Shown here piece after piece: positions 1-52,748 of a DNA stretch of 64,000 nt. The position numbers were made by a program, and so were the translations under genes. The DNA comes from Gracilaria domingensis (Eukaryota > Rhodophyta > Florideophyceae > Gracilariales > Gracilariaceae), in the NCBI GenBank assembly GCA_022539475.1, contig VCMS01000294.1:1-64000 (forward strand), in the 5' to 3' direction. The notes under the pieces were generated by a model. It worked only from the letters and a program-made list of their open reading frames with translations. It did no database searches and had not been told where the DNA came from. Position 1 is the first letter of the stretch. The number at the start of each line of letters is the position of its first letter.

Positions 1-600
1 TCGTGCAGGGGTGGGGCAGGGTGGGCTGTCGGTGCGCTGAGTGTTCTAAGAAATTGGCGCGCTCGTTCAGCGAGCACAGACGTCTGACACTAGCGGCGCG
101 GAGCGTAAACGCTGTGAATGACCGTGGTTAGGAGCGCGACGGTTCTGCCACGAAGGAGATAGATGCGTTCTCGGGCGCCGCGCGATAACGTTGTGCTGGT
201 GACGCATGAGTCGGCCGTGCATAATCTTTAGTCACTGTAGCAGGCAAATGTACAGTATCCTACGCTTTCTCGGCCAGCAAGTAATAAACGGACAGTCTTT
301 TGTAACGAATGGGACGTAACAGAATAGTAGGAACCTATCACCGCTACCATTGCCTGCATTAATTTTGATGGCGATCCTGCCCACACCCCGTGCTCATTCC
401 ATTGGACATGACATTGTACGCATATTTAATTTTGGGTTGAATAAATTAGGCACATTTTGGCCCTATTATGTCCAGAATCCACTGTCATAGGGATGTGCGT
501 ATAACACACTTTATACTCTCCCCTTTTCAGGTGCTCAAGATCTGCGCCGCACCTCACCACCACCTCCCTCTGCAAGCAAACTCCCTCACTACCTTCATAC
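1..600. other. Left edge, no gene recognised
   Basis: I see no coding sequence with recognisable features here. If copy A of the large transposon follows the plan of copy B, its left terminus and the promoter of its transposase gene should fall in or just before this stretch. I could not find a terminal inverted repeat by eye, nor similarity to the sequence beyond the transposase start of copy B. Confidence 0.5.
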
Positions 601-3600
601 CTTCTCACCACAGCCCATGCCACAACTGTGGTTCCCCCGCTGCTCATTTCCATACACAGTCCCTCTCCTCTCTCGCCCAGCATTCAGAGGCGATGCAGAC
701 ACAGGACTGACCCAAACCCGTTTTCTCACCCCAACACCTCATCAAGGATCCCACTCCCTCCCCGAAAAACAGCGCGCAGACTCAACAACAGCGAACCCCT
801 TCCTTCCCCCCTTCTAACCCGCCCGTCCGATAACGTAGCATTCGCAGACCGAGACCCTTATCCTCCAGAAACAGCATTGCTCTCTCCCTACGCTCATCCG
901 ACGCAGCACAGATACTCAGCCGCATCACCAACTCGCCTCCAGTCTCCTTCCACAGGCTCATGAACGCCTTATTTTCCTCTCTCCACCCTCACACAAAGAC
1001 CAAATCCATACCCTCGTCACCTACAATATCCTCCATCGCCACAAAACTCGAAAGCGTTCGCTGACGAGCTTATCAACATTCTCAAGCAATCCACCTTCCC
1101 TCTTCCCTCTTCCAGACCTCCATCACTTCCGCTGCCGAATGTCTGAAACTGCACTCCAAAATCTTCGAAGAAACAGTCAGCTCCATTGGGTTCACCTCAA
1201 CCATCATCCATGACAAAACCATAACTTCTCCGCCACCCTCTACCTCAGGACCCCGTTCAGGTTCTCCTACACAACTTCGTCTCGCATCCCACAGCAACTC
1301 TTCTTCATCCAGTCAAACAAGCTTCAAGAACAGGAACTACCGCAATCGCACACCCTATGGCTTCGGAACTCGGCCGCCATGTCGTCCCGACTATCAAGAG
1401 GCATATCATGCATTCTTCGGACCCCGACGTCATCTGGCACGATCCCAGTATCACCGGCACAGACTCGTTCGTCGGTCTCGTTCAACTATATTCAGACAAG
1501 TCTTCCACCTCTTTGAAAATTCTTCTTACGTCGTATCCTCTTCACATCACCCTCCTCAATTTCAATGACTCCTTCCGCAGAAAGTGCATCACGTAAAACT
1601 ACACACTCGTCGGATACATACCCACATCCTTCACCTCCGACTCGTCCTCCACTGACACAGATTCCTTGGAAGTCGCTCCCTCAACCCCCAGCGTGACCCG
1701 CATTGTGCGCATGCAGCTCGTCCAGGAGTCCCTAGAACCATCCTCAAACCTCTGTATCATATCGGTATGAAGGGTTTTCCCTTCCGCCGACGCCAAAGGA
1801 GTCCTTCGTCAATGCCATCCATCATCTCCAACTACAGCGCTGACATCCCCGAAGCAAGGACATTCTCGCAGTACTTCATGGCACAAAGCCAAGCAAACCC
1901 TGCCACCGGTGTCTCCTCCCTCGTTCAAAACTCAAACTCTACCAACCTACTCTCACAGAGCGAACCCTCTAACACACTTTGCAAACCAGAAAAAGACATG
2001 ATGACCTACTTCTCGAGGCAGATTCTGCTCTCCTCTCCCATAGACACGGGTTGCAAGGAACCTCAAAGAAGAAGCTGCAGAACTTCTCCACTCCACCTCT
2101 CTCTCTCCATACAAGTCCTTTCTGGAATCTTACCCTCTTCTCAACATCTCTTCACTGCTCACTCCTTATTCAATCTTCTCCTTCGAGCCCCTTCACAACT
2201 TTCACCTTGGCATCTCTAAACTCATCAAACTCGCCACAATCGAACGCCTGAAGTCCGATTCTCTTCACACTTCCGTGGGCTTCAATGGATCCTCCAGGTC
2301 GTTTCGGTCCATCAGAACATCTATTCTTACTCACGCCAACTCCATCCTAGCTGACATCGAACGCTCGTTTCCGGCTCCAGGACTTCATATTGATTTCTCG
2401 ACATCTGAAAAGGGTAAGTCTCTCAACGGCTTCTTCACCACTGACGGAATCAGAGGCATGCTAGAAGCAAAGAACTATCGCGCCCTCGACATGGTCTTCC
2501 CCTTCATCGGTGCATTCTTCGACCGTTGCTGCGGTGAAGTATCTCCCGCCCCAATAACCACCATTTTCACTCTTACGTCGATCTCGTCAATAACGTTCTT
2601 CACACCACACTGCCCCAGAATGGACTGATGATCGCTTACGCTCTTTGGAGACTCTCATCAAGAACTTCAAGACTCAAACTGTCTCAGTTTTGGGTCCATA
2701 CCAGGCCTCCAACTTTCGTACTCTCAAATTCCATCTTCTGGATCATATCATTCCAGACATCCGTCGATACGGAGCCTCCATTTCGGTGATGCAGGTGTGT
2801 ACGAGCACGCGCATCTCCTGTTCAAGAACCACTACCGCCGTACCTCTCGCAGAAGATCAACTGCGCATAAGGAAACAGTGGACTCATCCAAGAGTCGCAG
2901 GATTTCTTACACTCCATCTCGGTAAGGAAACACTTCTCCATGTCTACCAACTCGGCCAGTCGTTTGTCGCACGGTGTCCCTCCATGGTTCGTGATGGTAG
3001 TTCATTCTCCCTCTTCGACATCATCACGGCCGACAAGTATCTACGGTCCCATCCAAACGTCCCGTCATCTGCTCTCACAGATTTGTTCTCCAAACTACAT
3101 TGCAGTTCATCAACCAAATCTCTCGCGACGCCCTCTCTTCCTTCCGTACCTAAGCTTAGAAACTCTTCAACCGTTGGACAACCCCCATGACATCAAAATC
3201 ACCGTCGTTAATCGCTTACATTGTTTCTGGATTCTGCCCCTCGCTGGATGACTACGATCGTCACTTTCAATGCATTAGACTGCGAGAGCCGGAGGTCTCT
3301 TTGTGTGAACGTATTTTTGCAACCACTTCTTTCGGCCCTTCCAAGTCCCCAAAATTCTCTACCGTCCTGGTTAATGGAACTCCTCCTCCCGGTTGTGACT
3401 TCCCGACCGCATGGTATGCAAAGTCTTTGCCCTGGTTCGCTTTAGCAGATGTAACCAAAGCAATTCCGATTCTGAATTTGCCTTGTTCGCTTCTTCGAGG
3501 TAACGGAGCCGTTGGATAACATTGACGAATCCTTGAACTGCATTTCCCTCCGCTGGGCCACGAATGACGAGGAAGATCACACATTGCAAACCTCCAATTC

Positions 3601-3832
3601 TCTAAAACGGTCAACAACTGCATCTGTATTCCCATGGTTCGGTCTCGTCCCATTCTCTTCGATCAAAGGCTCGGTACACATCCTCCGACAAAACTATCCC
3701 GCACGCCCCTTTTCCCTACATTGCACTGGAAGTTCCACCGATTCTACATTAACAGATTCTATCGCAATCCCCGAGCTCGTTTACACTACTATCCAATCAC
3801 CAAACTTTCGTAACGTAACCATAATGCATTAG
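600..3832 (+). pseudogene. Plavaka/CACTA-like DDE transposase, decayed (T, copy A)
   Basis: Translations in all three forward frames line up in order with the better preserved transposase at 49,473-52,748. A zinc-finger-like CxxC...H segment lies near 620-700. The first acidic block (YSDKSS, then YPLHITLLNFND...R) is at 1,480-1,590. The FHLGISKLIK helix is at 2,200-2,235, and GLHIDFST.EKGKSLNGFFT.DGIRGM follows at 2,375-2,460. The YEHAHLLFK segment near 2,800 and LRWAT.DE...HTL at 3,545-3,590 are followed by a FYINRFY tail near 3,755. This architecture is that of fungal Plavaka transposases within the CACTA-like DDE superfamily. Frame changes occur near 1,600, 2,270, 2,600, 2,790, 3,480 and 3,710, so it cannot encode a full transposase. 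The N-terminal third is poorly preserved and its start is uncertain. Confidence 0.7.
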
Positions 3833-3951
3833 TGACGTTCTATCCAATTCCCCTCATGTAATCCTTCTTGCACAGACCTTTCCCTCACATCCTCTCTGCA
3901 GTTATGTCGTAGAACATACGGTCTCCCCGACTGCAGCATCTAACATAGCAA

Positions 3952-6330
3952 TCAGTACAGCTCCGAGCTTCTCAGAGATCTCTCCCATAAACACATCTTC
4001 TCGGACAGCAAGGTACATTTTCCTTTTCGACGGAATCCAGTAAACCACAGTGCCCACCCGTCATCATTTCCATGCGGCGCATCTTCAGCATTCGATGGGC
4101 CATTTCTGAACTCTGTTGGATAACTCTGCTGCATGCGGACCCTCACGGTCTTCAGTATACTCTCAAGTGCCAGTGGTAGATATTTCCCGAACAAGTTGGA
4201 GAACAACACTTGTCTCTTACCACCTCTCCCTCGTTCAGACTCTGTCGCGCGAACAACGGACGCTATCCAGGCATCAAGACGTGCCAGATGCATGATTGTT
4301 CCGTCCACTGGATCCCTCTCTTCGGTATTCCTCGAACTTGTTTGTAAAACGTCGTAGCCCATGAACTCACGCAGCACCTCCAAGCTCAGGCTGTTCCGAA
4401 AAAGCAAGTCACATGGTTCATCTTCGGTTGCATGATATGGGTTAAAGCCCGAGAAACATATATCTTCTACCTTCTGAGTTCTCCACGACGACAGAATCTC
4501 ACATCCATTTGCATCTTCGGGTAGAGTTTTTCACGTACCTCTCTGGTTTGTATTTCATACTTGTTCTGCTCCCTTTCATCATTTTTTATCGGGGTCCTTA
4601 CAAGCATGTCGTAACCTAGTCCCATCAATAACTTCTCCTTCGCATGGCGTTTTCGAACACCTATTGCATCACTTAAAGCCTGTTTCAACCTTCTGCGCAA
4701 ACAAATGTCGTGCGTTAACTGTTTCACACAGTCATCTTCCATTTTCATTCCTCGGATAGATTCCCAACGTGGCTTCATTACCTCCGTCTCCACAATTTGC
4801 ATCAACAAATGGTCGCCTCCACCACGTACGGATGGCGTGTACGCCCTCATCTCCATGGCAAGATCCATTGGGCACCGTGGCACTATCTCCTTCCATCAAC
4901 AACCAGCACACTGTCGTCTTTCTCAGGTCCAACTGTCTCACTTCGGTTGCCCCAGTTCCTTGCTGGTATACTCATCTCGAAGCATAGCTCTCTTGTCTCG
5001 TCTTTGGCGTATTGAAGTATGGAGTCATAGACGGTCTTCGCAACACCAACAAACTCGTCGTTCACGTCAATGTTGTACCGCTTCCTGCTCTTGTTACTGT
5101 CACGTTCGTTCCTTTTCCCTCCACGTCTGAGAGCCTCTCTCAAAGAGTGTATGAGAACCTCTTGTTCTCTGACCTTAACCTCCAGTTGCTCTATGTTCTT
5201 CTGAGCAAGTCGTACGCTCATTTTCAGACTTTGCTTGTCCTCTATTGTACGATACAGATCTCCCTTCAGTTTCAGGATCTTTTCCAAAAGCTCGTATCGC
5301 GGAGTAAGGGATTCATCTTCATCTTCTTCCATTGCACCATGCAGGGAAAAGCTCCGTGACAAAGCACCACGATCAACATCTTTATCGTTCCATACTTCTC
5401 TACGGGCGTTTGCTATGACAGGTTGCCGATCGTTCCCCACCCGTCTATTCTCATTTCCATGGTTCGTCCTTCTTCTGACCTGATTGAACCTGTTTCTCTG
5501 TGACTCACCTGTGACTGGTGTCGGTTTATCTCGTCTTCGTCTTCGTCTTCCTTGTGTCTGGACCCAATATGAGGGACGGAATCATGCCTGCCTTCGATGG
5601 GAGCCATATGCGTTGCATTTCCGCCGTCCACGTTGTCGTTCGCCTCCACGTTATCCTTGTCCTCGACGTCACTTGGGATATCTACTGCGTCCGTGGACTC
5701 CCGCTCCTTCTGCCATTGCCTTTCTTGGCACGAGAGACACCCTCATTCATTTTCTCGTTCCTCTTCACTTTCTCGAATCATAACTGTTACGTTCTGTTCC
5801 GGCAGCGCTTTGGGTATCTCCCTATCCCCAGGTTCGGCTCTAGGTTCGGCTCTCACGATGGCGCAATCCACGGTTTCCATCTCCGCATTGTCATCCGCAG
5901 TTCTCACCTTGTCGAAACAATCATCGATACGAGGACCTTCTGTTCCTCCACTGCCTCTTGTCCTCCTTACATTCTGACGTACAGCCGTTCTTCTCTTATT
6001 TCCTTTCATCGCTTTGATATCTACATTTCCATCATCACTGACCCTTGGCTCTTCCATTGCAGCCATGTGGCGTGTAACAGGCCCACGCATTGCACTATCC
6101 TTGGCTTGAACGGTTTCACTTACTGTGCGTTCCGTAGTGCATGTGGAAGCTCCTGACCTCCTTCTCGGTTTTACTTCCGATACTGTAGATGAAGATTTTG
6201 GTTTGCGAAGTCCAGCACGAGGTGCTCGGCCTCGGCTACCTCTCCCATTAGTAGCACTACTTCGTGACACGACCGCGCTCCTACGTTTGGCCACCCCAGT
6301 ATCCCAGCGCTCCGGCGGTACCGATGCCTT
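3952..6330 (-). pseudogene. Basic coiled-coil protein, decayed (C, copy A)
   Basis: Minus-strand fragments in different frames (about 6,330-5,743, 5,649-5,413, 5,440-4,883, 4,883-4,467, 4,407-3,952) align in order with the longer C protein at 47,080-49,315. Shared blocks include DEF.GVA..VY......A..E...L...IPARNWGNR, then VE.E...WE.IR, then C.R.R..Q..SD..GVRKR...KL...LGYD, then the tail LARLDAW.........RGG.RQ. The N-terminal part is Arg/Ser/Lys-rich and is followed by an acidic patch and a predicted coiled coil (LLEKILKLKGDLYRTIEDKQ region). No enzymatic motif is visible and I do not recognise the family. It runs tail-to-tail with T and in line with M. No in-frame ATG precedes the basic N-terminus, another sign of decay. 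Confidence 0.6.
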
Positions 6331-6833
6331 CGCGGTTTACCACCTGCATGCTCCGCACGTGAGAAGCCATCCGAGATCCTTCGGCCTTCGTGCGCGGTAG
6401 TATTACGGAACGGATATAGAAACGTGAACGATACTGAAGGTATATGATGAGAGTGATATGTGAGGGTCACGTACTCGGTATGCGGAACTGATATGTGACG
6501 GGGAGGGGAATTTAACCTCGTACTGCATATATGGAGGAAAGCATTCTGCAGCATTTGTGGCGGATCGGCATTCAAGTTTTGGACCTTTCCCGGGTCCATA
6601 TTCCGGACTTGGTCCGATTTTCCCGGATGTTGCGCCCTGCATATACAAGTACGGCACTTTCAACGATCTTTCATACCACTATATGCATCAATATGTTACA
6701 CAGTACAGCTTGAGTGTACATATGAGTAGTATGTCTGCAATCATAGCAGAAGTGTTCAATACAATTTACTTCAACAAAAAGCTTTTCTCACTACATTGAG
6801 CCCATACGAAGTTCAAGGACATTGTCTGAGAAC

Positions 6834-9800
6834 CTAGGTTAACCTTTCCCAAGGATATGTGGGTCCATAGTCAACGTAAATTTCGTCATGCTCCTTAATG
6901 TCCCTTGAGGCCGTGACTACGAGGAGTCTGTAGTTCTCCAAAAGCCCCAAAGTTGTAGCCTGATACTCTGTGGGCTGGCGAATGAATACATTTGTTTTGC
7001 GTGCCATGTTAGAATCCATTTCTTCCAATTCCTTGTCCTCATCACCTTCACGATATGACGCGTCATTGATATAGCCCGTTACACAGAAAGGAGCAGGAAC
7101 TATCCAGGCATGACCAGCGTTGACTTCAGTATCATAATGCGGGAGAGTGTTGTACATTTGCCCCTTCACCCTCACTTGCATGCAATACTTCCTGAACCGA
7201 GATGCAGTTGCCCCCAGCATTCCGTCTCCATACGTCAAATGTGTGGTATTGCGTCGGCTTAGATCATGATACACCAAGGTCCCATAAAAGTATCCAATAA
7301 CCTCCCCTTCGGAAAATGCCCTACTCGTAAATACTCCATTTCCACTTGCTGCATGTTTGATATTCGACTTCTTCACATAGAGCCATAGCGATGTCGCCTC
7401 GACAGAGAGTAAAGTGTGACTGTCCAACGTACTCATCTTCCCTTGTAAGGCAAGTGGCCACTCATGGAACGGTTTCTCTTTGTACGTAGTGATAAGACCA
7501 GGTTCATTCCAATAGGTGGATGGGTACGACATGATATGGAATGGGAAAGATTGGTACGATGGGAATCCCTTGGGTGCATTCCATATAGTCGAAGTCTTTC
7601 GTTTCCGTTCAGAAAATTTGGCATCCACCACATAAGACGCTTAAACTACCTCATTCGTAACCGGTTCTTTCATCTTCAATTCATTGCGCCACACTTTTCT
7701 TGCGTAATGCACAATAGCATTGTGCTTGGCATGAGAGAAACACTGCTCATCTTGCTCACATCCAATGAAACGCCGAGGCCCCTCAATATCCATACATTCC
7801 AGCGCGCACGAGAACTTCCCGGAGTAGAGATCAACCACAACATCCCCGGGATTCGAGAACCTCGCTATCAGCTCCATCAGTAGTTGCCTCGACTTTTGTT
7901 CTGGACGAGCCTTCGCGGTTCGAATTTTTCTACCACTCTTCACTCTCCATCGGAGACTCTCCCCAGGCGTAAGATTTGGAACCTGGTCAATGATAGAATA
8001 GTGCCCAGGATAGCGAGCTGAAACGTAGTTGAAGTTCTGATAGTTCACCATTACCTTCTGTTCCGCGTACGGGTTTCCATTCCTCATGCCATGCACGGCG
8101 TACTCCGTCGCCCGAAACAGGCGAGTAGTATTACGCGCAGGGTTCTTCAAGGGGTTCGAACGAGAACGAATGAAGTTCATGGGCGTCGAATCCACTAAGA
8201 ATGATGCGGTTTTCTTTCCGCTTGCGTCCTCCGACTTGTGCTCTCGCAAAATCTCTTCCCAGTCTCCAAACTGGTCGATACTGCAGAACAAAACGAAATG
8301 TCCTCCTGGTCGAAGCATGGATGCCATGATGTCCGCAGTATTGTCCATATCATCGTCAGCCAATTCGTCGTACTCGCTGTCGCGGATGCCATATGGTGGG
8401 TCTGTGAGCACGAACTGAACGTTGCCTTCCAAAGATGTATCCGATGGGAAGATAGTACCATGGGCCGCCACCAGTTCGTCATATCCGACACAATGCATTG
8501 AGAATTGCTTCTCCATGCTTCCTCGCACCACATCTAGAGCATTTAACGTGCGCGTGTCATCAAAGTCATGAGGGGGGAGAACCCCATCTGGAACGTTATC
8601 TTTCGCCCCAACAGAGGCACCAGGTGTATCACCTTCTTCATTGTCGCTATCGAGGATGACGATGACATCGGAGTTAACTGAGCTTTTCCCTGCGGCGTTC
8701 CTCTTGGAGGAGCTCGGAATCTGTATCGAGTCCTCAACCTTAACCGTGAAGGTATTACTTCCTCCATCCTGCCCTGAAGGAGCGCCCCTAAGGATAAGTC
8801 GAGATGGTTGGAGGTTATGTACAGACATCGCTTGACGAATAGAAGACATGTACTCTTTGGAGAATACATTGAAACGGGGTGGTACTCGTGCGGGGCGGCC
8901 AGGTCTGAAGCTTTCCAACAAATTCCATCTTGACGTTGGGGACATTTTGTATAGGAAGCCATTCAACACAATCTTGCTGAAATCTGCCAAGAATTCCTTT
9001 GCCAACTCCCGTAAGTTGGCGTCGATAGTATCCGGAAGAGTATGAACCCAAGAAACGGTGTCGTTCACATCCAACGTGGGTTTCAGTTCTTCCCCCAACG
9101 TATGAAAAGCTGACTCCGGACTGTACCCAACAGAGCGGGATTCAATGACATGGAACGCAAGCGACTTCTTTTCTACAAGCAGGTATGGCAGCAACATCTG
9201 CTCACCATCACCAAAGCCTAAGGTTGAGGCAAAGAAATCCCATCCCTTACAAATCGTTTGCACTGCATGTGCCATCCGTCTCCCGTGCGTCTCATTCGAA
9301 GCTATGTAGCCGTCGACGAACTGCACAGCTCTATGGGTTCCCTTCCCGGTCTTTCCTCTCTTCGCCGCTGGGAGATTTCTCTCCGTAGTTATATGCTTCA
9401 CGAAAGAGAGATAGAGTAACTGCTGAAAACGAGTGGGAGGCCCAATCCTGAACTTAGTTCTCTTCGTCTGCTTACTGCCTGGACCATGTCGTTTCAAAAG
9501 GTCATTCCAGAAAGCCCGTTCTATGAACGAGTTACCGTTGTCTACATTCTTTTCAAGACTCCAGGTAAACAAATCTCTCACGCGCCGATCAGAATTCTCG
9601 TCGTCTAGATCAGTGATACGCGTATATTTGTAGACCCTGCTCAGAAAACGCACGTCCAGACAGATCTTCGTGACTTCTTTTGCGGAGTAGTTTTGGAAAG
9701 GACCCTTGACCGCAGTGGTGATGAACTCTCGTGCACATGCCAGGTGTTCACGGTTTGATACAGCGTATTCCACAACTTCCGTGTACCCAACTTCACGCGG

Positions 9801-10001
9801 ATTACCAGTACCACTTCTTGAAGCGGCATACGCATCTCGCAACTCAATGAACAACCCCCAACATTTCAAGAAACGCGTTGCCATGCTGGCTGAATCGAAC
9901 GACGCGCTAGAGGACGCGCCAGAGGATACCGTGCCGTGGTTCTCATCGGCCAGCACACTCTGCTTAACAGTCCGAGGAGCGTCATTTCCGGTGGACGCCA
10001 T
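6834..10001 (-). pseudogene. DNA methyltransferase-SET fusion, one nonsense codon (M, copy A)
   Basis: A single reading frame spans this region, broken only by a TAA at 7,641-7,643. The start at 10,001 (MASTGND) is preferred over an ATG at 10,118 because copy B begins MDSTDDG at the equivalent place. An unrecognised N-terminal region of about 350 residues is followed by a low-complexity linker. Next comes a beta-class amino-methyltransferase: catalytic TDPPYGI near 8,400, RPGGHFVLFC, then RPEQKSR.LL and the SAM-binding VVDLYSG near 7,830 and GCEQD. DPPY precedes the SAM motif, as in N6-adenine/N4-cytosine enzymes (PF01555 type). Beyond the stop the frame continues into a SET domain with GNGVF......GE.IGYFYGTLVY, YINDASY.......NV and DEIYVDYG. 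Copy B reads through the equivalent junction without a stop, so I infer a native fusion. Two separate genes remain possible for this copy. Confidence 0.82.
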
Positions 10002-10281
10002 GTAAGAACTGAGAATCGGAAAGGACGGGAAGTAAACGAGTATTGTGAAACGGTAGAAGTTTCGGAGATGTTTAAATGGGTGGGAAGCGTCGGAAACGTC
10101 GGGAAGCGTCGGAAACAATGGTGGAGAGCGCGGTTGCGACGGATTACCGAGAACTGAGCGGGTAATGAAATAGATAGACGAGAGTGGGATCTAAACACAT
10201 CAAACCGGTGGGGCACCTCAGTATGTGCAGTGCATTATATGTCTAGTATGTAAAACCAACGTAGAAAACACTGGGTTCGTA

Positions 10282-10417
10282 CATCTTTGAACATCGCCCG
10301 AGCGCGGTGTGGGAACCGCGGTTCGCCGAGTTCATAGCCGAGATCATAGCTATGATCTCGGCTATGAACTCGGCGAACCGCGGTTCCCACACGGCGCTCG
10401 GGCGATGTTCAAAGATG
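10282..10417. repeat. 136-bp near-perfect palindrome between M and P
   Basis: Two 68-nt arms meet with no spacer at 10,349/10,350. By eye I find one mismatched pair, a G in the left arm near 10,306 against the right arm. It sits in the shared upstream region of the divergent M (start 10,001, minus) and P (start 10,698, plus) genes. Such a structure could be a binding site, a cruciform or hairpin, a small fold-back insertion or a replication element. It could also be an inverted-duplication assembly artefact, although the mismatch argues mildly against a simple artefact. Confidence 0.9.
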
Positions 10418-10697
10418 ATGAAAGGCGGGGACAGTGGTCAACCAGGACGGAATCAGACATTGATCCAACCATTTATAACCATCAGGAACTGTACCCACAC
10501 TGCTCACGTGTGCATTGCAGCCGTTTTGAACGTGAGTGGTTGCGTCCATTGTGCTCACGCGAGAAAGGGCGGAGATTCGAACACGAGCGGTTGCAACTTC
10601 ACGGGAGCAAACGTACGATTTGAAGAACACCAGGACTCGTGTATATCACACACACTGGCACCATATAATGGATATGAGAGGACTGGGAAAGGGTCAA

Positions 10698-14508: not shown

Positions 14509-14785
14509 GTGAATATGTGATGAAACTTTGTAGTAACCTATGTGTCGAATATAGTTTCGAAGTAAATGATCTTGTGAATCGAGAGAAAGTTTAAGAATTG
14601 TGGAAGCGACGACTCTATCCAAGATTGAAGGGTAGGATAGGATACCATACCAAACACTTCAATCCTGGAGAGCGTCATGAATATGTGGGAACTATGTTTG
14701 TAGAGAAGAGATTCTGTTTAGTTGAAACATGTATCAGTTATGTACTTATGTTCGTATAGTACTTGTCTCGCACTTGATGAATACG

Positions 14786-33000: not shown

Positions 33001-33070
33001 TCATTGAGGTACGAAGCAACACATAACAATTCCTTCATCCCAATGTGCCTCCCATCTCCTCATATCAGCA

Positions 33071-33603: not shown

Positions 33604-33617
33604 TTGATAGCATCGCA

Positions 33618-39301: not shown

Positions 39302-39336
39302 ACATTCCCGGGCCCAGTAACCACCCATCACCAACA

Positions 39337-39849: not shown

Positions 39850-39867
39850 CGAGTCGGGACGACTCTC

Positions 39868-39884
39868 CTTAATGGGGGAAGTGA
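39868..39884 (+). other. Polypurine tract
   Basis: CCTTAATGGGGGAAGTGA directly precedes the 3' LTR. It resembles the plus-strand primer site of Ty3/gypsy elements (GACGACTCTCCTTAA followed by G-rich sequence). Confidence 0.8.
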
Positions 39885-40412
39885 TGTTTGGATTTCGTTA
39901 ATTCTGGTCATGTTTTTATTTGAATTTGTTATATTGCTACGCTTTTAGTTAGTCATTTAATGTTTTGATGCTTTCTTTGAATTTCCCGTGATCTAGCCAT
40001 CCGATTTGATATCCTAATGATCCTCAGAGTCTTTGTTTGACATTAGTTGTCATAATCTTACCAAGACATGTCACGTGTGATGTCTGCCTCGTCAGTTGAC
40101 GTCATGACTGACTTCATAGTTTCGATGCCTTGCTGGAACTTCTACAAATGGACACGTTGCAGGAACTTCTAGAAGCTTCTAGACGACTCCACTGTCAATT
40201 TCTACGCACAGTTTCTACACTAATTCCGACGCAAGGGCCAGTACTCATAGACACATTAGTTTGAGGGATATTCTAGAAAGCTGCGTTAGCGACCTTATTT
40301 TCGAAGGTCCCATTCTCCATATAAACCCTGGTCGACTGCCCGAACTCTCCTCGGCAGTCACCATCGTTCACGTTCTCAACCATTGTTCAACCTCAGACCC
40401 AGTGTTCTAACA
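39885..40412 (+). repeat. 3' LTR (528 bp)
   Basis: It runs from TGTTTGGATTTCG to GTGTTCTAACA. Compared with the 5' LTR it has no indels and about 12 substitutions, one of which damages the fourth heat-shock unit (GAA to GAC). It is followed by GATTG at 40,413-40,417. Confidence 0.95.
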
Positions 40413-42028: not shown

Positions 42029-42329
42029 GGGCGTGTTTTGGGAGGTCCCGGAAAGGCGCCAGAATGTGGCCAGAACGTGCCCGCGGGCGGGGCGGGTCGG
42101 TCGTGTTAGGGTAGGTACCCTAACACGACCGGACCCCCACGCCCGCGGGCACGTTTTGGGCGATTTCTTGAAAAATGTGCGATTTTTTGCCCGCGGGTGG
42201 AGAGGTCCAGTCGTGTTAGGGTAGGTACCCTAACACGACCGACCCGCCCCCCCCCTCGCCCCTGGGCACGTTTTAGGCACATTCTGGGACCCTTCGGGGA
42301 CCTCCCAAAACACTCCTCCCGGCACTTCC
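42029..42329. repeat. Fold-back element 1 with two GTCGTGTTAGGGTA palindromes
   Basis: A left arm (GTGTTTTGGGAGGTCCC...) pairs imperfectly over about 60 nt with a right arm (...GGGGACCTCCCAAAACAC). Inside are two copies of a 30-bp palindrome with arms GTCGTGTTAGGGTA and TACCCTAACACGAC around GG (42,100-42,129 and 42,210-42,239). The right end continues CGGCACTTCC, as in fold-back 2, but the left end does not. This copy is therefore truncated or is a fusion of two units. It sits in the divergent M/P intergenic region of copy B. Confidence 0.8.
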
Positions 42330-43186
42330 GGCACCCACCGCGTCACTTCAATGCACTAACGCATCTTCTCCATCCTTCAAACGCTCCCTAAATCCCACGC
42401 GCACGACACCTACCCTCTCTGCGATCACCATCTCCCTTCCGAGGTGCTACACCTCACTGAATCAGTGACTGAATCTGTACTATTGAGTGGTTCCCATCTG
42501 TTCTACACGCTGCAGCAGTATATGCACTAGTCTGCCCTAGTCGTGCAAAATGGCACTTGACCGGCGAGCGCGCGAGGGAGGTGTCTCACCACAGAATCTC
42601 CGGGAGCACGCGAGGCTGCGATAGAGGCTACGAACTGTGACGCTTTGTGTTTGTGGCACAAAGGTGGTGAGAGGAGAGGGAGAGCACGTACGGAAGGGTG
42701 TGAAGCGCGTTCGCAACGCCCTTCACACCCTGGTGTCAGCAGCGGTCGGTGTCGTGGGTTCGGAGTGAGACTGTTGTTGCGCGCGGTCGCTGGCGAGCAT
42801 AGCGGCGGCTCTCCGATTGGCTGCATGCGCGTAACGAACTTACGGCTCTTGGATGGAAGTGCGTCGTGTACAGTCGATGACTGGCGTAAAGATTACTTTA
42901 CTGAAAGTTATAAGTTGTTTCATACCTTACCACTAGACTACAAAAGACTGCTATCGATGGCGCTCTTAAGTATTGCTGCGCCAGGGGCGGCCGCTGCGCC
43001 ATCGGCGGTGCATCCAGTATATCAGCTCGCGTCGTGGAACACGGCGCAGAATGCATAGAGTCCCCCACATCATTGACTCTCGACAACATCCTCTTCTCTA
43101 GGGTAGGTGTGGTACGCGTGGAAATTAGGGAGTTTATGGAGGGTGGAGAAGACGGGATGGTGCACTGAGGTGACGCAAAGGGTACA

Positions 43187-43396
43187 GGAAGTGCCGGGGG
43201 GTGTGTTTTGGGAGGTCCCGGGAAGGCGCCAGAATGTGCCCAAAACGTGCCCGCGGGCGAGGGGGGGGGGGGGGCGGTCGTGTTACGGTACCTACCCTAA
43301 CACGACCGACCCGCCCCCCCCCCCGCCCGAGGGCACGTTCTGGCCACATTCTAGCACCCTCCGGAGACCTCCCAAAACACTCCTTCCGGCACTTCC
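43187..43396. repeat. Fold-back element 2
   Basis: The termini GGAAGTGCCGG and CCGGCACTTCC start long inverted arms that include GTGTTTTGGGAGGTC and GACCTCCCAAAACAC-type sequence. In the middle is a third copy of the 30-bp palindrome (43,277-43,306; one arm has GTTACGGTA instead of GTTAGGGTA), flanked by runs of G and C. It is a MITE-like fold-back close to the start of M in copy B. Confidence 0.8.
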
Positions 43397-43695
43397 GGCG
43401 GTGATTTCGCTGCACACGCCGTGCACATATATCAAACTAGAGAAAACTAGCGCTTCACACCCACTTGGTGCGCGAGTATTAGCACAATGCGCGACCTTGT
43501 AATAGCTCCGAATCGCGACGTGGCCGACACGCGACGCTATCGCACCCGCTCAAAGCGGCACAGACACCTGCCTCAGAAGCCAGCGGACAGGGACACGGAT
43601 GAGACTGGCAGTGCGCTGCGAGGAGCTGCCGAAAGCGGGGGTGCCCAGCGTAAGTCGACATTTAAAGGCTCGCCTCCGTTGTTTGCGCTGAAGCG

Positions 43696-46600
43696 ATGGA
43701 TTCCACCGATGATGGAGAGGAGATACATCCTATCGACATGAGTGCTCCGCCTCCGGCGTTCCATGCATATGTCAGACTTTTCTTGGTTGTTCGCGATGCT
43801 TTGGCAAACAGCGATGGAGGCCCTGATCGGCCACGGGACGTGGGGTTTAGAGGGTTAATAGAGTTCTGCGCCGAGAACTATAAGAGTATTCCGGAGGCAA
43901 GGAAGATGTTTGAGGAGGCCACTAACTCCAAGAACCTGCAGAACTTGACACTGCAACAGCTGCGAAAGAGTGTTGTGAATAACAAACCTGTGGAACAGCG
44001 ATATCTTGTAACGAAGCTTCTTGACAAGAAGGACGGGGATGAGGACCAGAGACTGCGCGATTTTTTCCTTCTCTCTATGGATATGGGTATATACCTACCG
44101 GTGCGATGCCTGGTTGGTTATTTCATGACCAGGAGAAAGCAGGTTCTGAAGACGACAGTGTTCATCCCACCAACAGCTGTGAACCCATTTGAGGTCGTTA
44201 TATACTTATCATACCTCGGCCACATAATGGGAGAGAACGACAACATCCGAATGATGAAGAAGAAACAACCGAAAAAGAAACGAAAAGTGAACCATGCACC
44301 ATCTGTGTACATACCCACTTTTACGTCGTTCTCCAAAGACAACTGTGATCGACTGGGATTCGCTATCAGTGAGGTCGTATGGGCATGGAGTTGTTTTGCG
44401 GCTCATCTTGGATACACGAACGTTCAGCACATGGTGAAACCATACATTTACATGAATATGCAGACGTTGAAGTATACGGCGCTAGAGACACGGGAGTCTG
44501 GTTATGCCCCGCCGAGCCAGAGTACTCGATTCAACACACAGGATGTGCCACAGAGCAGTACTAGTGGATCGGTGGAGACCTTGAGTGATGAATGCGATAC
44601 AAACCTCCGAATACTGGCTAAGGAATTTTTGACAGACCTCGAAGCCATATACACCCACGATAGCCCCTATAGCTTACGGGCTGATTAGATGAGGAACTGG
44701 ATAGAGTTTTCGGAGATACGGATGGATACCGTATCTGGTTCTGACTCCGGTGAGTTGCCTGCTGGATTTCAGAAGTTTTCGGAGTTGCTATGGAAACCGA
44801 TACAGGATATGCGTCATGCGGCAGGGTTCCATGTCGGCATTCACGCGAAACCTGATATTGAACTGACGAAAACCCCTAAAACTTCCGGTAATGCCGAACC
44901 TTCTTCGACCAAGTCTGCCCCACCCCCACCTCGTCGAGAGTATATGAACCTCGTGAGCTCCGATAGCGACGACTTCGAGAAGCCGGTGAATCTTGCCGAG
45001 CATGAATCTCGGGTTGCCGGTTACAACATCCAAAAGTCTGGTATTGAGCCGCCCATGAAGGGAATATCCAGTCTCCTTCGAATGAATATGGACAAGGTGT
45101 GGAAGGGGATGAGAAAGTCACACTTTGTAGCGTACAACTGTGACATGAAGGACCTGAGGCACACACACGAAACGTTTGTGAATCAGAGTGAGATTTTATG
45201 GGGTGAGGCACAGCTTGTCCTAACAGACCCTCCCTTTAACACTCGAAGAAAGAGGAACAAACGGAATAGTGCTCACGATGTCTTCAGTGGGGATGACATG
45301 ATCCGTACGGCTGACTTAATAAGTTCCGCGCTTCGGTCAGGTGGGCACTTCATTATATTCTGTGCCATGGCACAGTTTCACGTTTGGCACAGAATACTTT
45401 CGGAAACGGCGAGTACGAAAGATGAAGCTAGAAGCGAAGGTAAACCAGAACTCATGCCTTCGTTTAAAGTGGATGCGAATCCACTGGTGTTCATCCGGGA
45501 TCGAAGTAATGTTGGAGGGAATCCACGGAAGTTTGGGATACAGCCCGTAACAGAGTACGCCGTTCATGGGGTGAAGCGTGGTTTGCGACCATCGGAGGAA
45601 GCCAGTCTTACTCCATTTGAGGAGAACAATTTCATTCCTTCTACTTTCCCGGCTAACAGGAATGTAATTGACCGGGTGCCAAAACCGAGAGCGGGGGAGT
45701 GGTTGACATGGAAGGTACATGAGCCAGGTAGTTCAGTACCAATTGGGCAGTACATAAGACCGGAGCAGAAGTCGAGGGAGTTGATGAAAGAGTTGATATG
45801 TCGCTTCACAAGACCGGGTGATCTTGTCATGGACATGTTCGCGGGAACGTTTTCTACGGGTATGGTGTGCCTATCGCTGACAAAGCATAGGAAGTTCATG
45901 GGGTGCGAGAAGAATAGGCCCTGTTTCAGCCATGCGAAGCACCATATAACGACCCTTATGGCCGAAGTTATTCGTGTGGGGAAGAATGATATCCGGGTTG
46001 AACAGGAGGTGATGGATGTGGCTTCAACGATTTATGAACAGGTTCCACATCGGGACCGAGGTCGGCTTGAATGGGAGGCTCCATTTGGTTACCCCCAGTA
46101 CCAAGTAATGCCTGCACATATTACTCAGTTCCTAGGAAGATACTGGAAGGACTGGGACTTTGTCGACAAGTGTGGACAGCATACTGTAGATCTTTGGGAG
46201 GAGAAGTACCGAGGAGCTCTGAATCTAATGCATATGCATATGCTGTTGACTGTTGAAGCCAATCGCTATCGCTTACATGTAGCATCTTCTAAGATTCGAC
46301 ATCCCCGTGCTGGTATGGGGTGTTCACGGAGCATAAGATATTGGTTGGGGAAACTATCTGTCATTTTTATGGAACTTTGGTATACACGGATGTGACGAAC
46401 CGGAAGGAAAGACACTTGACGTATGGAAGTGGCTGTCTCGGAGCAACTCCAGTGCGGTACAAGTTGTTTTCTATGATGGTCACTGTGACTGGCACGGACT
46501 TTCTGCACCTGAGGAACAGACCAGGACAGGCTCAGAATAGAAAGGAGAGCGAAGTGTACATTGTCCTGGCGCCTTTTTGTATCGGGGGCTACATTAACGA

Positions 46601-46832
46601 CGCCGGATATCATGCCGGGGATCCCGATTTATCGGAGCCCCGGTCAAACAGGACTCGAAGTGCCAATGTGCAGGTGGTGGAAGCGAAGTCCGTGATACAG
46701 TTTAAGTCCGACCTTTCTAACTATGCTCTACTTCGTTGTAGAGCAGTAAGAGATATTGAGAGGGGCGAAGAGTTGTATTTCAACTACGGAGAGCAGTACG
46801 CGTGGGACTGGGCCCTGACATTGGAGCAATAG
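43696..46832 (+). pseudogene. DNA methyltransferase-SET fusion, one stop and one frameshift (M, copy B)
   Basis: The frame from MDSTDDGEE runs to 46,395 with one in-frame TAG (44,686-44,688). It then moves to another frame near 46,317 and ends at 46,832. The methyltransferase part has LVLTDPPFNT (near 45,225), SGGHFIIFC, RPEQKSREL and DLVMDMFAGTFST (near 45,835), then GCEKN. Without any stop, the frame crosses the junction where copy A has TAA and enters the SET part (APFGYPQYQVMP...LHVASSKIRH). After the frameshift come GETICHFYGTLVY, GGYINDAGY, ANVQVVEA and GEELYFNYGEQYAW. The uninterrupted junction supports a native DNA methyltransferase-histone methyltransferase fusion of about 1,040 residues. 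The residue change DPPY to DPPF is within the family range. Confidence 0.82.
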
Positions 46833-47079
46833 ATGAGTTCAGTACCGAATAGAAAGTAAATATGCTTGTGAATGTCGCAGCTGCCTGCAATACGCGTTGT
46901 TTTACATGTACACTGCAGCTCTTCATCTGTAACGGCGATATTTGCGACCCATTGGGCACCTCAAATTCCTAAAAAGCAGGAACTGCGGAGTCTCCCGGAA
47001 TATCTGAACCATGCACCACGCCCCCACCCCTTCCCCCCCCCAAACAATTTCGTTTGATTACCCCGTTTATCTCCACAAC

Positions 47080-49315
47080 ATGGGTATAACGCCGAGAAAG
47101 CGAAATAGTACGCAGCGGAACAAGAGTGGACAGAAGAAGAGAAAAGCATCATATGATACGAATCAGGCTACAAGCACCGTACTTCCTAAACGGAAGTCGT
47201 CCTCGACGAAGGAGAGAGTCAGTGGGCGTCCTTCTACAGTACTCTCTCGCCCATCTCGCAGCGGAGCGTCTTCCGAGATTGCGTCAAGAATTCGTGGATC
47301 AGCGAACGATGTCGTGCCGTCAACTGCCGATAATGCAAATCGTGCATCTGTCTCTGCTCCTCAAGAAGATGAGGTAACTCGGCCCAGCGCGTCAGGACAG
47401 GAGGGCATGACAACTGAAACTGAAGAGGTTCGTATGACACCAAAACCTTCATGTCCCCTGCCGATATCGAAGACCGGAGCTACTGGGGCGCGGGTTACGC
47501 CGCCCAGTGGATCTGGACAACAACGGACAATGACGAGAAGTCATGAGAGCCCTAGTATATTAAGATCGTCACGTCCATCCCTGTCTTCTAGAACTGGGGA
47601 CGCTATGAATCGTATTATGCCTCGCAATGGGTCCGGACAAGGGAGAAAGACAATAAGAAATCGAGAGACAACTGATAGACGAGTTACTCCTCGACCTTCC
47701 CCTCTTTCCAGAACGGGGGCCATTGCAGCTCGTACGAGGCCCAATTCATCTGATATACCATGCCATGGAGGAGGACAGACACGGCAGTTGGAGCTCGGAG
47801 CCGTGCCAAGGGTGGAAACAGAACGCCTGCAGCCTCTGGTGTCTAAGGGTATGGCACATGAGGATAGTTCCGATAACGAAATAACACCGAATCCTGCGGC
47901 ACTACCGGGGCCTGTCGCCGAAGAGGCTAGGAAAATACCGGAAGATATCCACACTGGTGTGAAATCAACCTCTATGAACAGACGTGATCTTTTAAATGAA
48001 CTGAATTGCTTGAAAGAAAAGGTTAAGACGCTACAAGAGGACTTGATGGTTCGGGGTATTCTAGTGAAGGTCGCCCAAGAGCAGAGTACGGCTTTGAAAA
48101 AGAGGCTTGAAGAGAAGAATCTAGTCATTGAAGGGCTAAGGGGGGCACTGAAACAGGAGGGAGATAGGAGTACACGTGCTGGTGAACCTGGGCAGACAGG
48201 TCGAAAGAAGCATAAAATTGAGGTGTGCGACGAGTTTCGAGGGGTTGCTCGAGCAGTGTATCACAACATGCTGACGTGGGCAAGGAGAGAAACAAGTGAG
48301 CTATGGCTCGAAGGTGAGTCGCTCACCCGAAATTGGGGTAACCGTGTCGAGAAGGTGGAAGACGCAACTGAGAGTGGGGAAGGGCTTATTGAGCCGGAGG
48401 ACGGTGGTTCATACATGGTTCCTAAAAACCCTGTGGAGCTCTTGGGCAGTTTTGGCATGTTCACAACGTCGGTAGAGGGGGGGCCAGATGCTTTGCTGAA
48501 GAAAATGGTTGAAAGCGAGTTGAAGGAGTTGAGCTGGGAAGGTATTAGAAAAGCATCTCTTACCGACAGATGTATACTGGAATTTTGTGCAGATATGTGC
48601 CTTAGGCAGAGAATGCGGCAGACCATGAGTGACGTCGTGGGCGTTCGTAAGAGAAATACGAGGGATAAACTATTTCTGCTCCTGGGGTACGATCTGATTT
48701 GGAGAAGAACAAAGCTGGTAGAAGAGAATGCTGACGAACTCACAATGCAGTTGAAGGAAGCGCAGGAGAACATACTGCGTCTTGACGAAAATGGTGTACC
48801 GAACACTTCATGGTGGAGGAAAGCCCCATTTGTTCGTCTAAAGTACTCCAATGCGGACAATGTCGAAGATATGCCGACGGAAGATCAAGACTTGTTCTTC
48901 AGAAACCGTGTCGGGGTACAAGTACTGAAGGAGTTTATTGGGTATGATGTGGAAGACAAGGATACGGGCACCTTTTTTAGATGGCACAATACTGTTGCTC
49001 GCACGTTTGGACGCTTGGGTGTTGACGGTTGTGAGCCTTCTAAGTACGGATGTGTCAAGGGGTGGCCAGAGACAGAAACTGTTTACAAAGAAGTTTGCCG
49101 AACTGCTACCTCTCTGTTTAAACAATGTTCTGGGGGATGTTGGGCAACGTGTCTTGAGGACCAATTCCAGCGAGTTTCATAATTTTGGAACGACAACGGA
49201 AGATTGGACTAAGGTTCTTGGTAATGACATGAGAGAGGCTACATTTGGATATCGAATGCCGTCGAACGGAAGACTTTACCTCACTGTAAAAGAACAATTT
49301 TTTTTGACAGTGTGA
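47080..49315 (+). pseudogene. Basic repeat-rich coiled-coil protein, one frameshift (C, copy B)
   Basis: ATG at 47,080 (MGITPRKRNSTQ) opens a basic N-terminus with at least three degenerate ~40-residue repeats built around S-R-T-G-A...R..P..GSGQ. A coiled coil follows (LLNELNCLKEKVKTLQEDL, continuing to about 48,170), then a globular helical region shared with copy A (CDEFRGVARAVYH...LTRNWGNR...WEGIRKAS...CLRQRMRQTMSDVVGVRKR). Near 48,940 the frame changes; the homologous tail (LARLDAWVLTVV...RGGQRQ) ends at 49,315. No known domain. It lies downstream of M on the same strand, about 250 bp away, and is convergent with T. A role as transposase partner or DNA-binding structural protein is a guess. 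Confidence 0.65.
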
Positions 49316-49472: not shown

Positions 49473-52400
49473 TTAAGGCTGTACAAGATCAACGTGCTCA
49501 GATGGTCCTTCATCTGAATCATGATAGAATCGATTGATGTAGAATCGGTGTTGAAACCATTGAAGTGGAGGACAAAAAGGTGGAGCAGGGTAGTTTGACC
49601 GAACAACATGGACAGTTCCCTGTAGTGCAGAAGCCGGAACCATCCCGTACCAAGGAGTTAACTCTACGATAGTCTCCGCTTTGGAATGACGAGGGAACGG
49701 AAGAGTGTGGTTCTTTTCATCGTCTGTAGCCCACCGTAAAGAAAGGCATTTCAATGTGTGGTCGATGTTTGTCGCGGGGGATAAAACCTCGAAATACCGG
49801 ACGAATGCCACCTCTGGTGAGGTAAGTGCAGAATCAAGGAGAGATATTCGAATCAGAGCAACTACCTGGGCCACCTAAGTCTCTGTATCTTCTCCGCTTA
49901 ACAATACAGTGGAAAACTTTGGCTTTCTACTGGGACCAAATGCTGGAGAAGCGAAGACTCGTTGGATGATGGGGTATTTGGGTCGTCCCAGCTTAAGTGC
50001 CTTAGAAGACGAATCGAAGTGTTCAAGAGTCGGAACGAAACCGCCTTTCACGAGGGCCGAATTCACCAGAGTTATCCTTGTCTTTTCTGGGAAGTATGTA
50101 ATAGAGTGCTCATCCAGTGTTTCTTTCACGAGACTGAGGAAAGGAGGAAGGGCCTGTTCACCAATTTGGTCAAGAATCGACCTTGCGTCCGTACTTGAGA
50201 ACATCTCTCTAACAGCAGTCCATGTTTTTGAACTGGACATACTTGAAACACAATGTTGAAGAGCTCGTAAAGTGAAAGAACGCCCTCTCATTGCAAATCG
50301 AGGAAGCTGTGTGGAAGTTCCTTGTAAACCTGGATTACGCTGGTAAGGAGTATTGCCATTCCATTGCTTTCTAACATGTCCGTGCTCAATGGAGCGAATA
50401 GTCTCCTCCACAGCCGTTGCTGTTCTTCTGGACGTCTTTTTGTAGTGTCTCTTAAATAGCAGGTGTGCATGTTCGTATATGTCTGCGTCCTAGTACTTGA
50501 TACTTCCCAGACGGCGAATATCGTCCACGAGATGATCGAGAAGATGAAACGTCAGAGTTCCCAGTCTGGAGGGATGAAAATCCGCCAGAGTCTTTGTTGC
50601 GGAACGCTTGAAGGCTTCAATCTCCAAACTTAGACACAGGAGAGAGCTTTCAGTCCAATACGGGTCACGATTGTATCTGAATAAGGTCGAAAGCAAGTCC
50701 GAGTACTGAGAGAAAACGGTTGTGATTGGGGCAACGTCTTGTTCTCCACAGCATATGTCAAAGAATGCTCCTATGAAGGGGAAGACCATGTCAAGTGCTT
50801 TGTAGTTTTTGGCCTCCAGCATTCCACGGAGACCGTCTTTCGTGAAGATACCATTCAAAGATTTGCCTTTCTCCTGCGTGGAGAAATTGATATGTAAACC
50901 TTTGGCAGGAGAATCGCGTTCTATGGCAGCTAGAATTGCGTTTGCATGGTTGAGGAGTTGGGTGCGTATCTTTCGAAATGAATGCGATGCAGATGTTCCT
51001 ATTGTGGTGCACAGGGTGTCTGACTGCAGTCTCTCGATTGTGGCCGTTTTTATCAGCTTCGAGATGCCGAGATGCAAGTTTTGTAATGGTTCGAATGAGA
51101 ACAGACTGTATGGAGACAATCCCGGGATCATTCCAAGGCTTACGGAAGTTTCGAGGAACGAAGGAATGAGAGATATGGAACTTGAACGCATCACAGTATC
51201 CGCTTGAGATCTCCTCTCCCTCGCACGACGTGGACGTCTTTCCGCCTCGTCTTTTTGTGCATGTTGCAAGATAGCTGGGTATGTCTTTCGGATGCTTTTC
51301 GTGTGCTTTTGAGAACGTCCGTTGAATGAGGTGGGAATAGGACTGCATAAAGATAAGCGAGGGGCTTTCCATCTATGACACGGGCTTTCCGTTTTGGTCC
51401 CATGAAGAATGGAAAGAATATCCTTAGCCTCAGGAATATCCGCACAATAACTTGCAAGCAGAGGATGGCACACTCGACTTAGTTTGTCTTTGCCGATGAA
51501 CTGAAAACCTTTCTGCGTGAGATTTAGAATGGGCTCCAGGACTTGACGAAGAGATTCTTGAAGGATTTGCATCCTGGAATCGCGTAGAGACTTGCTAGAA
51601 ACGAATGGCATTGCGTCTGCTTCAGATGCGGAAACCTCGATCAGTGTGGTAGGGAAGTATGCCACTACTGTGAGGTCATCACGGATGCACTTACAGCGTA
51701 GCTCGTCGGAGAAGTTGAGAAATATGAGGTGAAGAGGATAGGCGGTAACCGATGTTTGCTTTAGAGTTGTTGAAGACTTATCGGTGTATACCTGCAGAAG
51801 ACCTACGAAAGATTCACTGTAACTTATTTCTTGGGAGTACCACACTATTCTACTATCCAAAGAGCCCATGACCATTTCCTTAAGTTTTGAGGTGGCGTCT
51901 CTTGCGAGAGAGCCGGACATGGGGTGAGATATTTTCGTGGAGTGGGTCTGAGGTATAGGGTGGAAGAATGTGTTTCCGTTGTTAGCCATCTGGAGCTGTT
52001 TTACAAGTGTCTGAACGAAGTCTCTCGTGTAGAGGGCGGCGCTGAACTTACATCCTTCTGGCGAGACAGTTCTTCGATTGAAACCGTCCTTTGAGGCGTA
52101 TCGTTCGAAAATGGCGTTCTTCAGTTCTGTACAGCGCTTGGAACATGTTATGGTCTCGTTGAATCGCTTTTGCGAGAATCGCGGGTCCCGAAGTAGCCCA
52201 ATTAGCTCGTCTGCCTCACGATGACCAAGATTGGAAGCTAATGAAGCCAGACAAACCGTGAGATAATCCATATGCAAATCACCGAGGGCCTCCTCAGAAG
52301 GCACTGGGCGGGAACTGCTTCCGTGTTCTCGCTCTAATGACGCGGGACCCGGGGAAGGAGAAACACAATGCGAAGTGTCCGGAATGGGAGGGGCGCACGG

Positions 52401-52748
52401 AGTGGGGTGAACGATGTCCTCGGACACCGGAGACTCTGGAAGACGACAAGGGGCAGTGACCGTTTCGGAAGATGCGGGCGCGGGCGCGGAAAGTTTGAGA
52501 AGCTTGCTTCTCCGAATGGGCCGGCTATTGTCGTCTTCCAGCGCTGCTTTCAGACGAAACGGGCAATGGTTGACATGCTGTGGAAGAGATAAGACTCCTC
52601 GGCGAATAATGAAGGGGCACCCACGCTTCTTATGTGTACAGTAGTAGACCATGGGAAGAAGAAATGAACGAGAAACGGCGACAAAGACTGCAAGGGAAGG
52701 TCGTAAGAAGGGAGAAGGAGGTCGAGCGACAGTCAAGATCGACGTCAT
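49473..52748 (-). pseudogene. Plavaka/CACTA-like DDE transposase, two in-frame stops (T, copy B)
   Basis: One frame of about 1,090 codons is broken only by TAG at 50,490-50,492 and TAG at 49,875-49,877. Two starts are possible, 52,748 and 52,652 (MVYYCTHKKRG). The N-terminus has a C/C/H/H-type finger (YYCTHKKRGCPF...QHVNHCPF), then a Pro/Ser linker. The catalytic region includes VYTDKSST and YPLHLIFLNFSDELRCKC (near 51,780), the LHLGISKLI helix, GLHINFSTQEKGKSLNG, and FHLLDHLVDDIRRLG leading, past the first stop, to IYEHAHLLFK..YKKTSRR. The C-terminus has RYFEVLSP...LRWATDDEKNHTL...WYGMVPAS..GTVHVVRSNY and FYINRFY. These are hallmarks of Plavaka-type transposases. It is the best preserved transposase of the two copies. 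Confidence 0.78.

Follow-up and report, generated by a model that had tools for sequence, protein, structure and literature searches.

What kind of mobile element would carry, beside its transposase, genes that may write, and perhaps remove, marks on DNA and chromatin? The question is raised by a stretch of 64,000 nucleotides from the red alga Gracilaria domingensis (the first 64 kb of contig VCMS01000294.1, our C294), hereafter referred to as the window, for which a preliminary description had proposed a transposon with two diverged copies of a single four-gene plan. In this work, we compared the two copies with each other and with the genome they come from, a 77.9-Mb assembly of 680 contigs. 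The core genes are named T (transposase), C (coiled-coil protein), M (DNA methyltransferase-SET protein) and P (the divergent neighbour of M); A and B indicate the two families and their copies in the window, and other copies are named by contig (C12 and so on). As judged from its genes, the element is probably a Plavaka-like transposon equipped with a chromatin- and DNA-marking module, serving anti-silencing or self-marking.

Two inverted elements and their termini

A and B are collinear and inverted with respect to each other: in a translated comparison (tblastn), window positions 1225-12689 match 52025-40420, and the collinearity is continued by 13284-14418, which match 31688-30489. The break in the alignment of B is accounted for by a Ty3/gypsy long terminal repeat (LTR) retrotransposon, inserted within P at 33076-40184 (plus strand; 300-nt LTRs, 98% alike). 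Protein identity in the larger aligned pieces is about 25-66%, so that the likeness is not due to chance. There is reasonable ground to regard A and B as old subfamilies, two in number, of a single cut-and-paste DNA transposon of Plavaka-like (CMCT-group) type. In the window, the T, C, M and P genes of A lie at about 619-14520, in a copy that is broken at 17236, and B extends from 24010 to 54438; both are decayed, T, M and P being interrupted in each. The interval 600-52748, initially taken for a single transposon, thus contains two elements and other DNA, including the Ty3 insert and, between A and B, a DDE_Tnp_4 (Harbinger-like) transposase gene at 19122-20405; a 95% copy of positions 18975-22000 is found on C188. 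The idea of two diverged copies sharing one four-gene plan fared better: collinearity, the Plavaka nature of T and the methyltransferase-SET nature of M were all recovered, and only the ParB-like and 2-oxoglutarate (2OG)-Fe(II) dioxygenase labels of P stayed unconfirmed.

T of B (49518-52748, minus strand, interrupted in its 3' part) matches PF18759 with an E value of 6.3e-15 and 55.7 bits (cut-off 26.3); many other copies also score above the cut-off, up to 87.5 bits. T of A (619-3829, plus strand, interrupted) was recognized by tblastn to T of B, its coordinates being mapped from C12, where a frame of 1,110 codons is open. Among 8,000 candidates scored out of 5.8 billion proteins, four database proteins are related to T, at 32-38% identity. 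In an alignment including these four, the A copy L006 and window B, the residues D, D, C(2)C and H(3)H are kept; the E residue is present in the four relatives and in C12 and is a Q in L006, and the broken gene of window B misses the second C and the end carrying E. According to the available part of Kojima (PMC12730594), D, D and E, with C(2)C and H(3-4)H between the second D and E, are the marks of the CMCT group. The profile score, the catalytic pattern and a 2-bp target-site duplication (TSD), within the 2-5 bp range and seen in A, with none for window B, place T among Plavaka/CMCT transposases, and T may with fair confidence be called the transposase of the element. The termini, CGTCTGT..ACAGACG, are unlike both TGT..ACA of PlavakaA and CATCA..TGATG of PlavakaB, and by this token the element belongs to neither.

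A full-length copy of A was found on C12, with its left end at C12:65379 and its right end at C12:85355, for a total of 19,977 bp, about 423 of which are N. In DNA searches of the genome, 37 of 40 scored matches to the left end start at query positions 448-456, and the three exceptions (C12, C444 and C393) extend into the same flank. At the right end, 33 of 40 stop at query positions 1731-1737; the others are C12, C299 and C233, which extend into the same flank, C200, which is short, the window copy together with a near-identical one on C25, and one match to the flank only. Since the ends coincide to this extent on both sides, one pair of termini bounds family A. Alignment of the ends, a check proposed in the preliminary description, revealed a terminal inverted repeat (TIR) of 23 bp with 91% identity (in C12), and comparison of the flanking bases, in C12 and eight further copies that have their two ends on the same contig, revealed a 2-bp TSD in six of the nine (AA, AT, CG, TA, AT and TT). 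Left ends are 97-99% alike to that of C12, and family A looks recently amplified.

The core genes keep their places with respect to these ends. For 29 of 38 A left ends, the Plavaka domain of T is located 2.75-3.99 kb inward of the end; for 31 of 36 A right ends, the C-terminal part of P is located 3.4-4.3 kb inward. Searching the same genome with the M protein produced at least 65 matches (55 of 845 candidates scored); around 52 M places, P was found on the expected side and strand in 34 cases, the right end in 23, T in 15 and the left end in 11, all of them lower bounds, as only the top candidates were scored. M-P distances, which partial matches can shift, range from 0.8 to 5.9 kb, with 13 of 34 at 3.10-3.19 kb. 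The list of M matches left most left-end copies without M, as would be the case if T usually occurred alone. This possibility was rejected by sampling 150 bp, at a fixed offset, from 16 of the 27 left-end copies absent from the list: twelve samples are A-type M (four at 80-87% identity), one is B-type M, one is C sequence (shifted) and two have no match, so that M, of either type, stands at the expected offset in 13 of 16. A chance grouping of the genes is ruled out by shared termini and spacing. For family A, therefore, the linkage initially suggested holds, the genes lying within a single pair of termini and T not being mostly alone; its mobility is strongly supported by shared termini, TIRs, 2-bp TSDs and gene spacing.

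Family B is supported as a mobile element by shared termini. Its P-side terminus is at 24010-24030 (CGTCTGTGTTCTGCAAAGTGG); of the 750 candidates 17 were scored, window included, and the 16 others all have their start at 24003-24010. The T-side terminus is at 54419-54438 (its reverse complement begins CGTCTGTCTCTTGCAG), and 20 of 22 other scored copies end at 54436-54442 (23 of 813 candidates scored, window included), the exceptions being C248, a few bases short, and C591, not reaching the terminus. Both ends begin with CGTCTGT, like those of A. Linkage is weaker for B than for A, because few candidates were scored. Reasonable estimates of size are about 20 kb for A and about 23 kb for B, once its Ty3 insert is subtracted.

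The methyltransferase-SET gene and its divergent partner

M is found at 6834-10118 in A (minus strand, with one in-frame stop between the methyltransferase and SET parts) and at 43696-46832 in B (plus strand, interrupted, collinear with M of A). The order of its parts is an unassigned N-terminal domain, a DNA methyltransferase (MTase) in which DPPY (DPPF in B) precedes motif I, and a SET domain. The two window copies match N6_N4_Mtase (PF01555) with E values of 5e-14 and 2e-15, and SET (PF00856) with E values of 7e-7 and 8e-6; SET scores are 28.4-30 bits in A and 26.7 in B (cut-off 22.4). Frames are open in C12 (1,055 amino acids) and C157 (1,057 amino acids), which are 64% identical, and both domains are found in the single open frame of C12.

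The match to PF01555, with motif IV (DPPY/F) ahead of motif X/I, assigns M to the beta class of N6/N4 MTases. Its nearest solved relatives, over about 65 residues, are the adenine-specific DpnA, CcrM and MboIIA; since 6mA and 4mC (N6-methyladenine and N4-methylcytosine) specificities evolved repeatedly among N6_N4 domains, as stated in the available part of PMC8885841, the type of domain alone is no proof of adenine specificity. A bacterial origin of the MTase was considered and finds no decisive support in two Phycisphaerales loci, 41-42% identical over about 50 residues, nor in 95 phage records that lie below 60% identity. The whole layout of M is shared by one database protein, P0007 (1,060 amino acids, 35% identity over 97%), whose SET part scores 20.5 bits, just under the cut-off.

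Raw ratios of nonsynonymous to synonymous differences (pN/pS), calculated for the single pair C12-C157, are 0.29 for M overall, 0.19 for the MTase and 0.24 for SET. The corresponding ratio of substitution rates (dN/dS) is 0.10-0.12 for SET in the same pair; other parts of M are saturated, and raw pN/pS was used for the whole gene because dS is saturated. The presence of the two domains, their fusion and the low pN/pS make M a rather likely candidate writer of both DNA and histone marks.

P is found at 10536-14520 in A (plus strand, frame broken) and at 30390-41442 in B (minus strand), where it is collinear with A and split by the Ty3 insert, with two further in-frame stops. Frames of 1,326-1,327 amino acids, with no stop in the matched part, are open in three copies (C434, C61 and C140). 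Two parts were labelled by motif only, a ParB-like one, from about 11655 in A, and a 2OG-dioxygenase-like one, at about 13233-14379. The former keeps (I/V)D(G/A)xHR in five of five aligned rows, a motif-level likeness. The latter is characterized by HTD...H...RYH. An alignment of six rows, representing A, B and A-like subfamilies with 49-75% identity, shows HTD and the distal H in every row and the R before YH in five. The dioxygenase-like region has a pN/pS of 0.21 for one pair of subfamily copies, and the ParB-like region one of 0.33.

Other parts of the elements

C, a coiled-coil protein by eye, lies between T and M. In A it is located at 3833-6513 (minus strand; coordinates mapped from C12), and a long part of the frame is open in copy C127, collinear at 98.6-99.6%; in B it is at 47011-49228 (plus strand), and the two genes are collinear. 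Domain searches gave no family match for C of B. CACTA/EnSpm elements, which encode TnpA and TnpD, resemble A and B in having two core proteins, subterminal repeats and a CMCT transposase, and differ from them in their CACTA termini and 3-bp TSD; to our knowledge, they have no chromatin-writing module. C may resemble their accessory protein TnpA, and could act on subterminal motifs shared by A and B. A candidate is TGCTAGT/ACTAGCA, spotted before any count was made, which also tops the count of 7-mers shared near the ends of A (in C12) and B (in the window): TGCTAGT occurs within 700 bp of a terminus in four of five instances in A and in four of four in B, and all eight point inward. Subterminal direct repeats (units of 177 and 100 nt, about 405 nt apart) were also detected in B, at 53175-53854.

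In each family, M and P point away from each other, and palindromic sequences, unrelated by eye, lie in the space between them. In A, this is a near-perfect palindrome at 10282-10417, with 68-nt arms (136 nt in all, 99% complementary, z -20); in B, nested GC-rich inverted repeats are located at 41711-43683.

The region between P and the far end differs in the two families. In A, it contains an open frame of 400 amino acids at 14786-15988 (minus strand), located inside the termini in C12, with a hydrophobic, membrane-spanning look by eye; it is specific to A and has no convincing family match. The last accessory reading frame is at 16628-17236 (plus strand); the copy is broken at 17236, where the match of other A copies to the window stops. 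Position 17236 was considered as a terminus and discarded, as other copies continue for about 630 bp, to the right terminus at C12:85355. On the opposite side, the A sequence of the window begins within the element, its initial 496 bases having no match to C12. Positions 15-18630 of the window are 97.7% alike to C25:316173-334879, perhaps the other haplotype, with divergence at 18630.

In B, the corresponding region features a 367-amino-acid open frame at 26559-27662 (plus strand), inside the termini, an HAD-IIB (Cof-like) hydrolase at 28145-29161 (plus strand; PF08282, E 4.5e-14; TIGR01484, 42.0 bits, cut-off 41.8) and a second HAD-like hydrolase at 29217-30125 (minus strand; PF08282, E 7e-5, 23.1 bits, cut-off 20.9). 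No convincing relative was found for the 367-amino-acid frame, and the label of ketopantoate reductase, considered for it, was dropped, as nothing supports it. The stretch from P to the P-side terminus, including this frame and the HAD pair, is present in the 16 other scored copies, pieces being 93-97% identical and one piece 85%; B is thus a cargo-carrying Plavaka-like element. On the whole, a common T-C-M-P core with different cargo in A and B is a fairly well-founded description of the two families. Beyond B, at a distance of about 0.9 kb, frames of a clathrin heavy chain gene were found at 55291-58930.

A probable marking module and its alternatives

The structure of the element, its copy number, the gene order, the domains of T and M and the low pN/pS between two subfamily copies are established here. 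From them we infer, with some confidence, the biochemical activities and the benefit to the element. M would act as a bifunctional writer, methylating DNA at an exocyclic amino group (most likely N6 of adenine) and also histones by means of its SET domain, so that copies of the element would carry a private chromatin state. P, transcribed divergently, would probably remove or convert by oxidation either host marks or those set by M itself; that it erases marks is a role that it may have, on account of a dioxygenase-like motif incompletely kept in C61 and C140. The likely benefit would be escape from host silencing, or licensing of transposition. Tentatively, these functions could make up the private epigenetic code of a eukaryotic DNA transposon, in which M sets DNA amino-methyl and histone marks jointly, its divergent partner reads or removes marks, and transposase and helper act on the marked ends, related giant Plavaka elements also shuttling metabolic cargo.

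A number of observations weigh against this reading. No copy was found with all four genes open, T and M being open and P and C broken in C12. The SET domain has YIND...N where NHSC of the canonical active-site motif (NHSCxPN) stands, a feature common to P0007, and motif I of the MTase (AGTFS) is unusual with respect to the canonical one. As to the ends, a matching TSD was not seen in three of the nine A pairs (C12, C61 and C233): a single TG site, which is uninterrupted in window B near 31113, results from joining the left flank of C61 to the right flank of C12, C233 or C299, a fit that suggests either exchange between copies or assembly joins. The flanking dinucleotides of window B are unlike, with no matching TSD, and a B-type T, in the right place and on the right strand, was found in four of the 16 contigs with a scored P-side end, at 16.6-19.6 kb, among the few candidates scored. 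Two A copies with both ends, C202 (13.6 kb) and C120 (13.2 kb), are absent from the list of M matches; being short and without a listed M, they are probably internal deletions. A chimera was also found at C22:684158-702359 (L042, L001, L043, L013, L044), in which T, C and M are of A type as far as the palindrome and are followed by B-type C and M sequence. In P, finally, the R of the dioxygenase-like motif is replaced by C in L077 and L078 and by L in C61 and C140. L078, C61 and C140 are outside the six-row alignment, and C61 and C140 are among the three copies in which the P frame stays unbroken for longest. ParB and dioxygenase profiles were not found in P by searches of Pfam, NCBIfam and PDB sequence profiles, and the two names that the preliminary description had given to this protein are thus not borne out beyond the level of motifs.

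These last points bear on the alternative that P is no eraser of DNA marks, its C-terminal domain hydroxylating protein (for example, histone lysine), repairing alkylated DNA or being no 2OG dioxygenase at all. We hold this to be a possibility of some weight, on balance doubtful. It agrees with the failure of any sequence profile to recognize that domain, with the replacement of the motif R in some copies and with the finding of no relative of P at E 0.001 among 7,997 candidates scored from the same 5.8 billion proteins; nothing convincing was found for the ParB-like and dioxygenase-like parts in PHROGs, phages and plasmids either. It agrees less well with the preservation of HTD and the distal H in the six aligned rows and of R in five, in spite of their divergence, and with the pN/pS of 0.21 obtained for one pair.

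An unlikely alternative is that the marks set by M, rather than protecting the element, serve to silence or to label copies, both its own and rival ones, in a kind of copy-number control or target immunity. Amino-methyl marks can indeed join silencing: in bdelloid rotifers, the available part of PMC8885841 reports that N4CMT deposits 4mC at active transposons. Many A and B copies are, moreover, decayed, with stops and partial matches. Silencing would, however, leave unexplained why a dioxygenase-like gene is kept beside M, and does not fit well with the recent amplification suggested by the likeness of A left ends.

That M and P are passengers captured by chance, with no role for the element, is very improbable. 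B does hold other genes, the HAD pair, inside its termini, but T, C, M and P are kept in both subfamilies, across the protein divergence described above, while cargo differs; pN/pS is well below 1, and the layout of M is kept in P0007. An endogenous viral element of giant virus or adintovirus type, to which size and an own methylase might point, and for which Amoebidium provides a precedent in having such insertions and, separately, Plavaka giant repeats (PMC11244446, in its available part), can be practically dismissed, as the element has a DDE-type transposase with TIR and TSD, the Pfam-scanned frames (part of those of the window) include no capsid, DNA polymerase or packaging family, and among 2.9 million viral contigs, scanned three times by pattern, no relative of M, P or T could be confirmed.

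A Plavaka-like transposon with a probable marking module has several partial precedents. Among the closest are the TET+ Plavaka (PlavakaB) transposons found in fungi of the Agaricales (Kojima 2025, PMC12730594), which share a CMCT-group Plavaka-type transposase, have TSDs of 2-3 bp and carry a dioxygenase gene thought to counter silencing; the available part of that paper makes no mention of a methyltransferase, SET or ParB-like gene in them, their termini differ, and P is not recognized by any profile. The same source cites the HarbingerS and MuDR elements of Phytophthora as DNA transposons with a SET histone-methyltransferase gene; these belong to other transposase superfamilies, and the part available does not speak of SET being fused to a DNA methylase in them. 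The Plavaka giant repeats of Amoebidium differ in that many of their genes are tyrosine recombinases, and a methylase-SET gene is not mentioned in the available part of PMC11244446. N4CMT of bdelloid rotifers is a comparable case of a eukaryote that has recruited a bacterial N6_N4_Mtase domain, with a link to chromatin; according to the available part of PMC8885841, it is a host gene and not one of a transposon, with an SPPY motif and a fused chromodomain, which reads histones, in contrast to the SET domain of M, predicted to write on them. Phage and plasmid ParB-methylases bring ParB-like and adenine-methylase domains together (PMC5512222, in its available part), but in one fused prokaryotic protein, whereas here two divergent genes are involved and ParB is seen at motif level only.

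The preliminary claim that no described element combines these genes agrees with a literature search that largely left out subscription papers and the 2014 Plavaka paper; within this search, no description of an MTase-SET fusion was found either, and the gene combination is new for a CMCT/Plavaka-like transposon with epigenetic genes. Transposons with one anti-silencing gene are already known. A natural MTase-SET fusion could be turned into a tool that writes the two marks together. With a DNA amino-methylase-SET fusion carried by an amplified element that was apparently active in recent times, it can be tested whether linked DNA and histone marks can be installed by mobile elements, and whether N6/N4 methylation, the role of which is still disputed, can matter in eukaryotic nuclear DNA.

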